A stretch of DNA of 49,281 nt from Eggerthellales bacterium (GTDB lineage: Bacteria > Actinomycetota > Coriobacteriia > Coriobacteriales > Eggerthellaceae): the NCBI GenBank assembly GCA_029006935.1, contig JAQXGX010000183.1, positions 1-49,281 on the forward strand. The letters run 5' to 3'. The translations under genes were made by a program, and so were the position numbers. Shown here in pieces: positions 1 through 35,751 of the stretch. Each line of letters opens with the position of its first letter. Position 1 is the stretch's first letter. Under the pieces are notes generated by a model. It made no database searches. It worked only from the letters and a program-made list of their open reading frames with translations, and was not told the origin of the DNA.

Positions 1-277
1 AGGCCTTTCTTCGGGGATGGACCCAGTGTAGCGGTTTTGCCCCGCGCCGCCATGGGCAAGTGGCGGCTGCCTGGGTCTGTCGGCGCGCCGTCGGCGGCGT
101 CGGCTTCCAGGGGTTCCTGGCCTATGAAGCGCAGCGCGGGAGCCAAGACGCTTGCGATACTGCGCTGCCACTCTTGCCTAATCGTTCGTGCGATGAGGGC
201 GGCGCATTGTGCGAAGCCGAGTTGTCAATTCGGGTGCCGAGAGCGTGGGCTTGACTTGTTTTGGGGTGCCCTCGTGT

Positions 278-317
278 CGATTTGGGCGCCGAGAGCATAA
301 TCTCGGCACCCAAATTG
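278..317. repeat. 17-bp inverted repeat, second repeat family
   Basis: Arms 278-294 and 301-317 pair over 17 positions with one wobble and one mismatch around a 6-nt loop. The arm motif (CAATTTGGGTGCCGAG-like) recurs at 226-244 and, in related form, in the 69-nt repeat at 341-409. The hairpin sits between a degenerate palindrome unit on its left and the main array on its right. The left flank reads as the reverse complement of the right flank, as if two copies of the composite element met head to head. Confidence 0.7.
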
Positions 318-340
318 GCACCGCCCCATGCTTTCGACCG

Positions 341-409
341 CCAAATTGACAGCGGACCCTGGATTTCAGGGGCACGAGCCCGCTTTCGACACCCGAATTG
401 ACACGGGTC
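341..409 (+). repeat. 69-bp repeat flanking array 1
   Basis: This 69-nt stretch matches 35481-35549 at 58 of 69 positions without gaps. In both places it lies 40-42 nt before the first palindrome of an array, so repeat and array look like parts of one composite intergenic element of about 270-380 bp. A shorter piece recurs to the right of array 3 at 35763-35797. No coding potential is visible. Confidence 0.8.
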
Positions 410-716
410 AGGAGAGCCTGAGTCGTGAGAGCGGTTCGTGCCGGGCAAAGTCGTTCGTGTATCGAAGAGGCTCCCTTACGCGAACGATTACCGCGCTCGT
501 TTTCGTTCGCGTATCGAAGGTGGTGCGATACACGAACGATTTCGGTCGGCCTAGCTGCTTGATAAACGGGAGTTTCAGGACGAAACAACCTGAACCTGCG
601 CTGCGCGAGCGGTTACCCGCCTCCGATTCGTTCGCGTATCGAAGGTCGCGCAATACACGAACGACTTTCTCCCGGATTTTCGTTCGTGTATCGAGGGAGC
701 GTCATTACACGAACGA

Positions 717-1191
717 TTCTCCGGCCTGGATTGAGGCGCCGACCGGGCGGCGGCCCCTCCCTTCGAGCGGCAAACCGGGGAACCGTGCGATTTCGAGACC
801 AGGGCAGAAAACGCGGCCTTTTCAGACATGAAACCGAGGTTCTGTACGATTCCTCGGGGCACCGCAGCCCCTTTTCCAGAATCTCAGCACCCTTTGCCCC
901 CTCCGTGCATCAGCACGCCGAAGAAACCCCAGGTCAGGGACTTGCCTCCATTTCACCACAAGGACGAAGGAGCAGACAACTATCCTTCTATGAGGAGCAT
1001 CGTCGTACAGAACCCCGTTTTGACCCCCGAAGCGGGCGAAAAATCTGCCCTGGGCCCGAAGGCACGCCGACGAGGCGGCAGCGATACCCCCAGGCGGAGC
1101 CGAGGGGCTCGCGCCGAACCGAGGCGGCACGGGGCGTCGAGGGTCGGTTAGGCCGAGGAGGCCGGGTGCGCCGAAGGTCGGAAAGCTGAAA
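717..1191. other. Non-coding stretch, no gene recognised
   Basis: About 475 bases between the palindrome array and the next single palindrome. Frames open here give low-complexity Arg/Pro/Gly proteins typical of chance reading of GC-rich DNA, have no convincing ribosome binding sites and resemble no family I know. The only structured element I see is the terminator-like hairpin at 856-875. Confidence 0.6.
856..875 (+). terminator. Intrinsic terminator-like hairpin
   Basis: GGGGC (856-860), a 6-nt loop and GCCCC (867-871) are followed by TTTT. It would end a plus-strand transcript, yet no plus-strand gene lies upstream in the window; the only thing upstream is the palindrome array. This hints that the array may be transcribed. 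The stem is only 5 bp, so the call is tentative. Confidence 0.45.
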
Positions 1192-1228
1192 TCGTTCGCA
1201 CAACGACGGGGTGCCGTTACACGAACGA
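1192..1228. repeat. Single 37-nt palindrome unit next to the TauE gene
   Basis: Arms 1192-1205 and 1215-1228 with a 9-nt loop. The left arm is the CACAACG type and the right arm the TTACAC type, so three central positions do not pair: it is a hybrid of the two subfamilies. It begins 20 bp past the stop codon of the minus-strand TauE gene, where, read on the minus strand, it is followed by a T-rich run and could act as that gene's terminator. Confidence 0.75.
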
Positions 1229-1247
1229 TTTCGGGCGGCCGCGCGCC

Positions 1248-2012
1248 CTAGAACACGCCGGCAAGCTCGCCCACGGTCTTGACCATGAATATGGCCAGCA
1301 CCGTGAGCATGATGGGCTTGGTCACCGCCGCGCCCTTGCTGGTGAACAGGCTCACTCCCAGGTAGTTGCCGGCCATGTTGCACAGGCCGCACACCAGCCC
1401 CAGCAGCAGCCACACGTGCCCGCTCAGCAGGAACACCACCAGAGCGGAAACGTTGGTGGTCAGGTTGACCACCTTGGTGGTCCCTGCGGCCTGGCCCAGG
1501 GTCAGGTGGGCAAAGGAGGTGAAGCCGATCATGAGAAAGGTGCCGGTACCGGGCCCGTAGATGCCGTCGTACACGCCCACCGCCAGGGAAATGCACATGC
1601 ACAGCGCCAGGGTGCGGCCCCGGCCGAAGGGCTCGCGCTCGGCGTCAAGGGAGCGGCCGCGCATCAGGTACAGGGCGGTCAGGGGAATGACCACCACCAT
1701 GATCAGGCGAAACACCCCGTCGTCGATGAGCAGGGCAAGGTTGGCCCCCGTGGCGGACCCCACCAGGCCGCAGACGGCGCAGGGCAGGGCGCGGCGCCAC
1801 TGGATCAGCCCCTGCCGCCAGAACCGAAAGGTGGCCAGGGACGTGCCCATGCAGCTGCTGAGCTTGTTGGTTCCCAGCACCATGTGCATGGGCAGGCCCG
1901 CCATGATGAATCCAGGCAGGCTGATGAGCCCGCCTCCTCCTCCGATGGCGTCCACGACGCCGGCAAGGAAGGCAAGGGGGCAGGCAATGATGAAGGGCAG
2001 TAGAGATTCCAT
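1248..2012 (-). CDS. TauE/SafE (TSUP) family membrane exporter
   Basis: A 254-residue, strongly hydrophobic protein with about eight membrane segments. It shows the two inverted half-repeats of the TauE/SafE family: a glycine run (GGGGGLISLP) near residue 24 and a matching GIYGPGTGTF motif near residue 150. Family members export sulfite, sulfoacetate or related organosulfur anions; the substrate here cannot be told. The ATG at 2012 is preferred over an in-frame TTG at 2018. Neither has a Shine-Dalgarno sequence, and a TATAGT box on the minus strand (2021-2026) ends only 8 nt before the ATG, so the mRNA may be leaderless. It diverges from the malic enzyme operon and has no sulfur-metabolism neighbours. 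Confidence 0.88.
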   Translation of the reverse strand: MESLLPFIIACPLAFLAGVVDAIGGGGGLISLPGFIMAGLPMHMVLGTNKLSSCMGTSLATFRFWRQGLIQWRRALPCAVCGLVGSATGANLALLIDDGVFRLIMVVVIPLTALYLMRGRSLDAEREPFGRGRTLALCMCISLAVGVYDGIYGPGTGTFLMIGFTSFAHLTLGQAAGTTKVVNLTTNVSALVVFLLSGHVWLLLGLVCGLCNMAGNYLGVSLFTSKGAAVTKPIMLTVLAIFMVKTVGELAGVF

Positions 2013-23656: not shown

Positions 23657-23899
23657 CTCTAGGTGCGCCGACGGTCGGGTAGGCTGGATTTCGCCCGAAT
23701 CGGGGCCCTGTTTTCGATTGTGAGGCTGAGGTCGCTGCTCCCTTTCGTCCCTTCAAGGGCATGGCTTGATGACCTGGGCAAACGCAAGCGGGCGAAATCG
23801 ACGTCGCCTCCAACGGGCCGAGCCAGCCGCACAATCGCAATCGGGATCCGGCACGGGCCTGAAGCGCATGGGTCGTGCAAGCGGATCTTGCTTGGGAAA

Positions 23900-24062
23900 T
23901 CGTTCGTACAACGAGTGAGTGCCATTGTGCGAACGATTCCCGATCGCCAAATCGTTCGCACAACGGGGGTTTTCGGGCGAAACAGCCCCGGACCTGCGTT
24001 GTACGAACGATTCGCGGCGGCCGTTTCGTTCGCACAACAAGCGGGTGCCATTGTGCGAACGA
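23900..24062. repeat. Palindromic repeat array, copy 2 (37-59-37)
   Basis: Three units at 23900-23936, 23952-24010 and 24026-24062, separated by exactly 15 nt each. The outer units have 14-nt arms and 9-nt loops. The middle unit has 14-nt arms and a 31-nt inner segment that itself holds short inverted repeats (GGGG...CCCC and TTTCG..CGAAA). Order, unit lengths and spacing equal those of array 3 within one base. Stems and gaps are nearly identical between the two arrays while the 9-nt loops differ. Confidence 0.9.
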
Positions 24063-30374: not shown

Positions 30375-30642
30375 GCTTTTCCTGGGTCTGTAGTTGCGAG
30401 GAAGCTCGAAAGAGCCGCCTTCAGTCCATGACAGACGCGGTCAAAGGGATCCACGTAAGCCGGCGGATACGTCCGTCGCGCGATCATGGCGCGTCCTAGA
30501 GGTAAGTCGCACCGCTCGATTACCTTACCTAACGCGGCAAAGTGTCGCGCGGGCGAGAGGGTACCAGGTTCACGCTTGGCCCCAGTGCGCGAGTGTGGGG
30601 GCAAAGACTAGGTCAGCCGGGAAAAGCTACAAGGAAGGGCGA
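30375..30642 (+). ncRNA. Structured 5' leader or small RNA of unknown class
   Basis: About 268 nt with many inverted repeats. GTCTGT (30390-30395) and ACAGAC pair around a GCTC-GAAA-GAGC tetraloop hairpin. GACGCG just after can instead pair with CGCGTC some 55 nt later. AGGTAA pairs with TTACCT, CGCGGCA with TGTCGCG, and GCCCCA with a TGGGGGC near the 3' end. The open frame crossing it gives an unlikely protein. I compared it by eye with T-box, lysine, glycine, SAM, cobalamin, ydaO, 6S, RNase P and tmRNA patterns and found no match. The following gene encodes an amino-acid-type binding protein, so a riboswitch is a natural guess. Confidence 0.55.
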
Positions 30643-35262: not shown

Positions 35263-35480
35263 TCTCCGGCGCGGGTGAGCTGGGACGCGCCCTGGGCTCC
35301 CTGCGCTTTGTTTCTGCAGCGCGGGTGCGCAGGTGCCCGCATCACTGGTGGCGGCCACTTTCCGTTCGGGGCTAAGACTGGATCCGTTCAGGTGGGCGAG
35401 ACTCGGGTTTGCCCGGAGTCATGATTGGGTCTGCTCAGGTGGGCTAAACCGGGCCTACGAGGCTCAAGTGCGGGTCTATG

Positions 35481-35549
35481 CCAAATTGACAGCGACCCTC
35501 CGATTTCGGGAACACGAGCCCGCTTTCGGCACCCGAATTGCCACGGGCC
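35481..35549 (+). repeat. 69-bp repeat flanking array 3
   Basis: Matches 341-409 at 58 of 69 positions without gaps and lies 40 nt before the first palindrome of array 3. Its right half (GCCCGC..TTCGG..C..AATTGCCACGGGCC) recurs at 35763-35797 after the array, so array 3 is bracketed by related sequence in direct orientation. Confidence 0.8.
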
Positions 35550-35589: not shown

Positions 35590-35751
35590 TCGTTCGCACA
35601 ACCATGGGGTCCATCGTGCGAACGATTCCCGATCGCCAAATCGTTCGCACAACGGGGGTTTTCGGGCGAAACGGCCCTGGACCTGCGTTGTGCGAACGAT
35701 TCGCGGCGGACGTTTCGTTCGCACAACGACGCGATCCCATTGTGCGAACGA
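35590..35751. repeat. Palindromic repeat array, copy 3 (36-59-37)
   Basis: Units at 35590-35625, 35641-35699 and 35715-35751 with 15-nt gaps. The middle unit has perfect 14-bp arms TCGTTCGCACAACG / CGTTGTGCGAACGA and differs from its partner in array 2 at only three of 59 positions. The first 15-nt gap is identical to that of array 2 and the second differs at one base. The short loops differ. Confidence 0.9.

Follow-up and report, generated by a model that had tools for sequence, protein, structure and literature searches.

Helically phased arrays of inverted half-sites in an Eggerthellales genome: candidate dispersed elements built of protein-binding sites

Introduction

What kind of sequence sets out palindromic units at fixed distances from one another, and what is preserved in it, the pairing of the arms or the sites that the arms spell? 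The question is raised by an array at positions 451–716 of a 49,281-nucleotide stretch (the window), which is contig C183 of G000, a metagenome-assembled genome (MAG) of an uncultured, gut-type actinobacterium from the Eggerthellales (1.79 Mb in 197 contigs, estimated 98.8% complete). The initial annotation offered three options for this array: an RNA of repeated hairpins, a set of protein-binding sites, or a REP-like mobile element. The usual explanation of palindromic repeats in bacteria is that they are hairpins which RAYT transposases have spread, whereas here helical register is conserved, pairing is not, and RAYT was not found. Independence of the arms, taken together with a 10.5-bp phase, provides a cheap sequence test, usable in any genome, for distinguishing arrays of duplex protein sites from hairpin repeats. 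The arrays also point to a putative new DNA-binding or mobilizing protein in a common gut lineage.

Architecture of the Array and Its Flanking Modules

The array at 451–716, on the forward strand as are all features of the window given here, comprises four subtype B units of 37 nt, namely unit 1 (451–487), unit 2 (503–539), unit 4 (628–664), and unit 5 (680–716), with a decayed central long unit of 58 nt at 555–612 and gaps of 15 nt, the first of these at 488–502. This agrees to the base with the original description, in unit and gap coordinates, in the lengths of units and gaps, and in the decayed central piece. Each 37-nt unit of this family of arrays (designated R3) is laid out as arm, loop, and arm of 14, 9, and 14 nt, the central unit measures 58–59 nt, the gaps are 15 nt, and the full plan in G000 is 37-15-37-15-59-15-37-15-37. 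The intact 59-nt form of the central unit occurs in subtype A arrays, and G094, a genome of the same genus, has a counterpart. Half-sites are alternately inverted, those of unit 1 facing each other, and read TCGTTCGYGTAYYG in subtype B and TCGTTCGYACAAYG in subtype A. TCGTTCG is common to both subtypes and the inner arm differs, being YGTAYYG in B (the 451–716 array) and YACAAYG in A (the arrays at 23900 and 35590).

The three arrays of the window had been said to follow one rule. The 15-nt gaps are indeed kept in all of them, but the other two have the layouts 37-15-59-15-37 (23900–24062, flanked by crcB and a gene for an ABC ATPase) and 36-15-59-15-37 (35590–35751, upstream of a BTAD-regulator gene), and both carry the second arm subtype, with CACAAY in place of GTATYG. 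A single unit at 1192–1228, missed by the initial annotation, is chimeric, joining an A-type left arm to a B-type right arm, and a decayed unit lies at 182–218.

Several other modules accompany the arrays. Module R2 (223–403), before the 451–716 array, consists of five 21-bp sites TGTCAATTTGGGTGCCGARAG, two forward and 52 bp apart, three reverse and 31 and 52 bp apart. Module R4 (788–1053), after the same array, is a dyad repeat with GGTTCTGTACGA / TCGTACAGAACC arms and a CTGACCTGG core. Module R1 (23683–23842), a dyad repeat with a GACCTGGG core, lies upstream of the subtype A array, and a partial R2 (35480–35543) lies upstream of the third array. The four modules tend toward the order R1-R2-array-R4. 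Shuffle tests for arm covariation in R2 were not significant; the R4 arms show some double changes, on six sequences. A further module, R5, of about 350 bp, near-palindromic and with sites TGCCAATTCNGRCGNTRTTACCAC, adjoins R3 arrays at L027:4282-4641, L029:2577-2924, and L020:4216-4402. No match to R1, R2, R4, or R5 was found in the examined 1.2 of 2.4 Mb of G094. Elsewhere in the window, positions 30377–30625 (+) hold a raiA RNA (Rfam RF03072, 147 bits).

Abundance in the Genome

The window has 11 matches, exact or near, to TCGTTCG-N23-CGAACGA, where 1.74 are expected; 0 of 100 shuffles reached this count. The initial annotation had asked for a genome-wide search with this pattern and its 15-nt spacing. 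Such a search of G000 returns 48 exact units, with 0 for the reversed control pattern, and the spacing recurs: the gap pattern CGAACGA-N15-TCGTTCG, with at most two mismatches, occurs 59 times compared with 6 in the control. When up to three mismatches were allowed, 61 units at about 26 array loci were collected, chimeric A/B units among them. The G000 assembly is fragmented, and some of its contigs break at arrays; C43, C187, and C127 (L018, L035, and L028) end in or near them, which indicates that the repeats interrupt the assembly and that the number of copies counted is a minimum. According to rough gene calls, arrays sit in convergent, co-directional, and divergent gaps with no obvious rule, and many are located 3' of genes.

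Independence of the Arms

Palindromic units of this kind might be tandem RNA hairpins, each unit folding in a transcript and the whole acting as a terminator, a stabilizer, or a protein-titrating RNA. The location of many arrays 3' of genes would suit such a role, and predicted folding is strong (z of -6.7 for one strand and -6.6 for the other). Equal folding of both strands is, however, unavoidable for any inverted repeat, and the minimum-energy folds pair across units and not only within them. Covariation between subtypes A and B also favors hairpins, but arm covariation appears only when the two subtypes are pooled, and it arises because both half-sites switch together between subtypes.

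Within subtypes the arms of the 61 G000 units vary independently. In subtype B, the four combinations of letters at position 8 are as frequent as independent draws would make them, and shuffles of whole right arms in G000 give complementarity at or above that observed [P(>=) 0.98 for A and 0.99 for B]. The same is true of 48 units from G094, in which arm letters assort independently, with all positions at expectation. In these units a left CGTTCG set against a right CGTTCC places G opposite G, and arms mismatched in this way are frequent. GT and AC mismatches are roughly balanced (49:65), with no strand-related excess of G.T over A.C, and a count of G.U bias in each array, made to infer the transcribed strand, revealed no consistent bias. 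At positions 8, 12, and 13 the arms of both subtypes show slightly less complementarity than expected from independent assortment (low tail P about 0.02 and 0.01), as if perfect palindromes were avoided.

Pairwise identity over 15 subtype B unit pairs is 96% at the half-site ends (a value somewhat inflated, as the units were gathered by their ends), 78% in the inner arms, 45% in the loops, and 46% in the gaps. Independent arms, combined with half-site ends so much more alike than loops and gaps, indicate that conservation acts on each half-site separately. Constraint falls on half-site sequence and on spacing, loops and gaps are left to drift, and no selection on arm complementarity itself can be detected.

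Rfam returned nothing credible in the array, with no match at the gathering score and just sub-threshold miRNA-precursor hits, so that neither an Rfam match nor within-family arm covariation marks the array as a structured RNA. No promoter-like site was found in window positions 1–1300. The repeated-hairpin option of the initial annotation thus loses its footing, there being no compensatory change within subtypes, independent arms in the 48 G094 units, and no excess of G.T over A.C. Units as RNA hairpins were dropped on the within-subtype shuffle tests in G000 and G094, and the hairpin reading as a whole is judged improbable.

Helical Phasing of the Sites

The spacing of the units supplies a second line of evidence. 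Unit starts in G000, relative to the first, fall at 0, 52, 104, 178, and 230 bp, giving like-oriented spacings of 52 and 74 bp. G094 has a layout that is likewise fixed and oriented and yet unlike that of G000, with gaps of 9-6-9-6-18-17-[57/58 centre]-7-18. It is found at L140, less completely at L055, reversed at L139, L151, and L153, and again at L224. Fixed spacing had been taken to mean that the array was copied or is read as a unit; the spacing is indeed fixed within a species, but it varies between species. At L140 the unit starts are 0, 43, 83, 126, 166, 218, 269, 333, and 385, and like-oriented distances in G094 are 43, 40, 52, 51, 65, and 75 bp. A scan of periods from 8 to 14 bp peaks at 10.40 bp in G094 and 10.45 bp in G000, and when the L140 spacings are jittered by up to 5 bp, equal coherence is obtained in 0.055% of trials (P about 0.0005).

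Other site families follow the same period. Like-oriented distances are 31 and 52 bp in R2; 40–42 and 51 bp in R5; 63, 64, and 43 bp among the CTTACCYACG sites of L047 in G094; 61, 52, and 125 bp among the CGACCTATGCGC sites of G094; and 53, 63, and 64 bp among the TTCGTCGTTCACACAACG sites of G073, a genome of another genus. Eighteen distances pooled from seven site families, picked beforehand by eye for their symmetry, give a best period of 10.45–10.5 bp in a scan from 7 to 16 bp, and 0 of 20,000 jittered sets is as good. Families other than R3 peak on their own at 10.4–10.45 bp, while R5 alone fits 10.1–10.25 bp better than 10.45 bp. Whole helical turns (about 10.45 bp) therefore separate like-oriented sites in several families, drawn from G000 and G094, which are species of the same genus, and from G073. 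Around the TCTGACCTGGG core (described below), an automatic repeat scan of other genera gave no sign of helical phasing, like-oriented sites at about 10.5-bp multiples not being seen.

A period of 10.45–10.5 bp is the pitch of B-DNA, and there is no reason for it to show in RNA. Spacing by helical turns belongs to duplex DNA, a further point against hairpins. The protein-binding-site option of the initial annotation gains support from the recurrence of sites at whole helical turns.

Dispersal and Turnover

If the units are duplex sites, it may be asked whom they serve. Arrays occur as closely similar copies at different loci: the array at 35590 is 93% identical over 324 bp to one on contig C169, at an unlinked locus, and the array at 23900 is 89% identical to the C169 array over 220 bp. 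Comparison with 1.2 of the 2.4 Mb of G094 reveals empty sites, at which the interval upstream of the BTAD-regulator gene is 124 bp in G094 and 707 bp in G000, that after a ribosomal-protein gene (rplS-like, by eye) is 83 bp compared with 918 bp, and that at the C43/C110 junction is 165 bp where G000 has a composite element; these sites do not separate gain from loss. Other G094 counterpart loci have an unrelated gene in place of the array, and most array loci with a readable counterpart lack an array there. The convergent gap beside a LysR gene (97% identical between species) holds an array in both G000 and G094, with different half-sites. Empty and replaced sites, together with one kept array with changed half-sites, indicate that positional turnover is high, and half-site sequence changes between species as a set. 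At the 3' site of LysR in the next genus (G041, L111:1405-1460) a different perfect palindrome, TTGTGCGCAATGAGAC...GTCTCATTGCGCACAA, is present.

The main rival to a mobile origin is that the phased arrays serve the cell as binding sites of a chromosomally encoded repressor or nucleoid-organizing protein, with dispersal by selection and duplication, and with possible roles as a domain boundary, as insulation between operons, or as a supercoil sink. Constrained half-sites and helical phase are what such a protein would require, and the one array kept in two species with changed half-sites looks as if it tracked a co-evolving protein. This proposal has to contend with the lack of an array at most readable G094 counterpart loci, with the use of convergent, co-directional, and divergent gaps under no obvious rule (rough gene calls), and with the flanking modules R1, R2, and R4, which travel with copies in the same order. 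It is considered rather unlikely, and copying in trans is preferred to chromosome organization because of the high positional turnover, the co-travelling modules, and the recent near-identical copies.

The favored reading, to which we assign a probability of slightly under 0.6, is that the arrays are non-autonomous, REPIN/MITE-like dispersed non-coding elements made of phased duplex sites for a putative binding protein. A sequence-specific protein would bind inverted half-site pairs on double-stranded DNA, and its protomers, lying on one face of the helix, would contact each other to form a multi-site complex. A trans-acting recombinase or transposase may then use this complex, by which copies would spread, and selection for spreading or for binding could preserve the half-sites, as it does in populations of REPINs or MITEs.

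Relation to Known Systems

The arrays are classed here as a variant within the known dispersed extragenic palindromic repeats. REP sequences and REPINs with their RAYTs (Bertels and Rainey, 2011, PMC3116915; Di Nocera, 2013, PMC3733652) are likewise extragenic and multicopy, with inverted doublets of a short conserved motif, a variable spacer, fixed distances, tandem clusters, and a species-specific motif, and inverted doublets of a conserved motif are numerous in the extragenic DNA here. It might accordingly be proposed that these are ordinary REP, BIME, or REPIN elements mobilized by RAYT, short extragenic palindromes in clusters being just what that system produces (compare PMC3116915 and PMC3733652). 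Three features tested from the REP/REPIN definitions are nevertheless absent. RAYT (the Y1 transposase, PF01797) has 0 matches in G000 and G094, with control genomes positive. The REP definition includes a GTAG or CGTC tag that stands unpaired at one terminus (PMC3733652), and no such tag stands beside TCGTTCG...CGAACGA in the aligned units. Compensatory changes are common in REPIN stems (PMC3116915) and not in these arrays. The arrays differ also in their longer central unit, in whole-helical-turn spacing, and in the presence of several unrelated site families per genome. Mobilization by RAYT is scarcely credible, and of the REP-like mobile element first suggested there remains the behavior, dispersed copies and empty sites, and not the membership.

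Unit geometry also recalls the core sites of tyrosine recombinases, arm-spacer-arm like loxP or dif, of which an array would offer alternative crossover sites. The 14-9-14 layout, in which symmetric arms flank a spacer that is asymmetric and variable, agrees with this, and the genomes contain Xer-like recombinases. With some 60 units of diverse spacer sequence in each genome, however, the chromosome would be unstable, integrases are few, and such sites have no need of helical phasing between units, making this a very unlikely account.

BIMEs of Enterobacteria are mosaics of palindromic units of about 37–40 nt and other extragenic modules in a preferred order, the units being stem-loops with REP tags and known gyrase or IHF sites. 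The arrays resemble them in that palindromic units of about 37 nt are joined to further extragenic modules, the preferred order here being R1-R2-R3-R4, and differ in that their arms do not covary. With bacterial MITEs they share a non-coding, dispersed, dyad-symmetric character and presence or absence between species; the array ends are inverted half-sites and so qualify as terminal inverted repeats, as would those of any palindromic array. Unlike MITEs, the arrays have multiple internal phased sites and not terminal repeats only, and neither a parent transposon nor a target-site duplication was found, the latter in empty/filled pairs whose G000 and G094 flanks are too diverged to place the junction. 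Transposon ends such as those of Tn7 (TnsB), Mu (MuA), and Tn5053 (TniA) contain several long asymmetric sites in ordered positions, on which multi-protomer complexes assemble. The arrays are similarly built of several long asymmetric ordered sites, but are symmetric overall, without cargo and without a recognized transposase. Among rve-type genes there is one in G000 (C67) and none in G073, although related arrays are present in the latter. In searches that covered the Y1 and rve classes and integrases, no transposase attributable to the arrays was found, nor was a binding protein or an excision product, and the literature on Eggerthella-like bacteria yielded no relevant described repeat family of this kind.

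Related Site Families and a Shared Core

Exact units are not found in the rest of the family beyond singles, most of them chance-like, the hit of the first model in G020 (L064) being also chance-like, and neither the pattern nor the element has a match in GTDB contigs, IMG/VR, or phage and plasmid collections. A profile built from both species and run on 397 genomes of the order finds arrays with strong scores in 2 of them and weak but informative hits in two more. G073 has arrays of a related site, TTCGTCGTTCACACAACG, and in G350, from another family, a series at L221:1397-1590 reads 37-15-37-15-37-15-37, in which little beyond CGTTC...GAACG is recognizable; the G350 series thus has the spacing rule of G000 with nearly unrelated sequence. 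Further intergenic families of symmetric or repeated design and unrelated sequence are present in G094 at L057:62-382, L060:5985-6119, L047:18657-19018, L060:6273-6335, L060:7762-7825, and L204:14395-14560.

A wider proposal, put forward tentatively and with less confidence than doubt, is that these families could form an undescribed class of extragenic mobile elements of the Eggerthellales, in which fast-evolving binding sites set in helical phase make up dyad-symmetric arrays, often around a conserved TCTGACCTGGG core. A protein machinery other than RAYT might spread them, and its site specificity would diversify into several families that coexist in one genome.

The core, extended as TCTGACCTGGG(G)(TTTT), is present in 72 of the 138 genomes of the family, and the reversed control is almost without matches. 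Copies lie in the window at 929–937 (within R4) and within 23683–23842 (R1), elsewhere in G000 at L034:8740 and L029:3511, in G094 at L187:13310, L200:16753, L053:2855, and L153:781, in G073 at L222:1692 and L225:1391, and in other genera at L242-L270. Strong inverted arms accompany 10 of the 26 core copies examined and 1 of 52 mismatched controls, coding and unclear loci having been left out. The inverted arms are mostly situated about 40–60 nt from the core, and their sequences vary between species.
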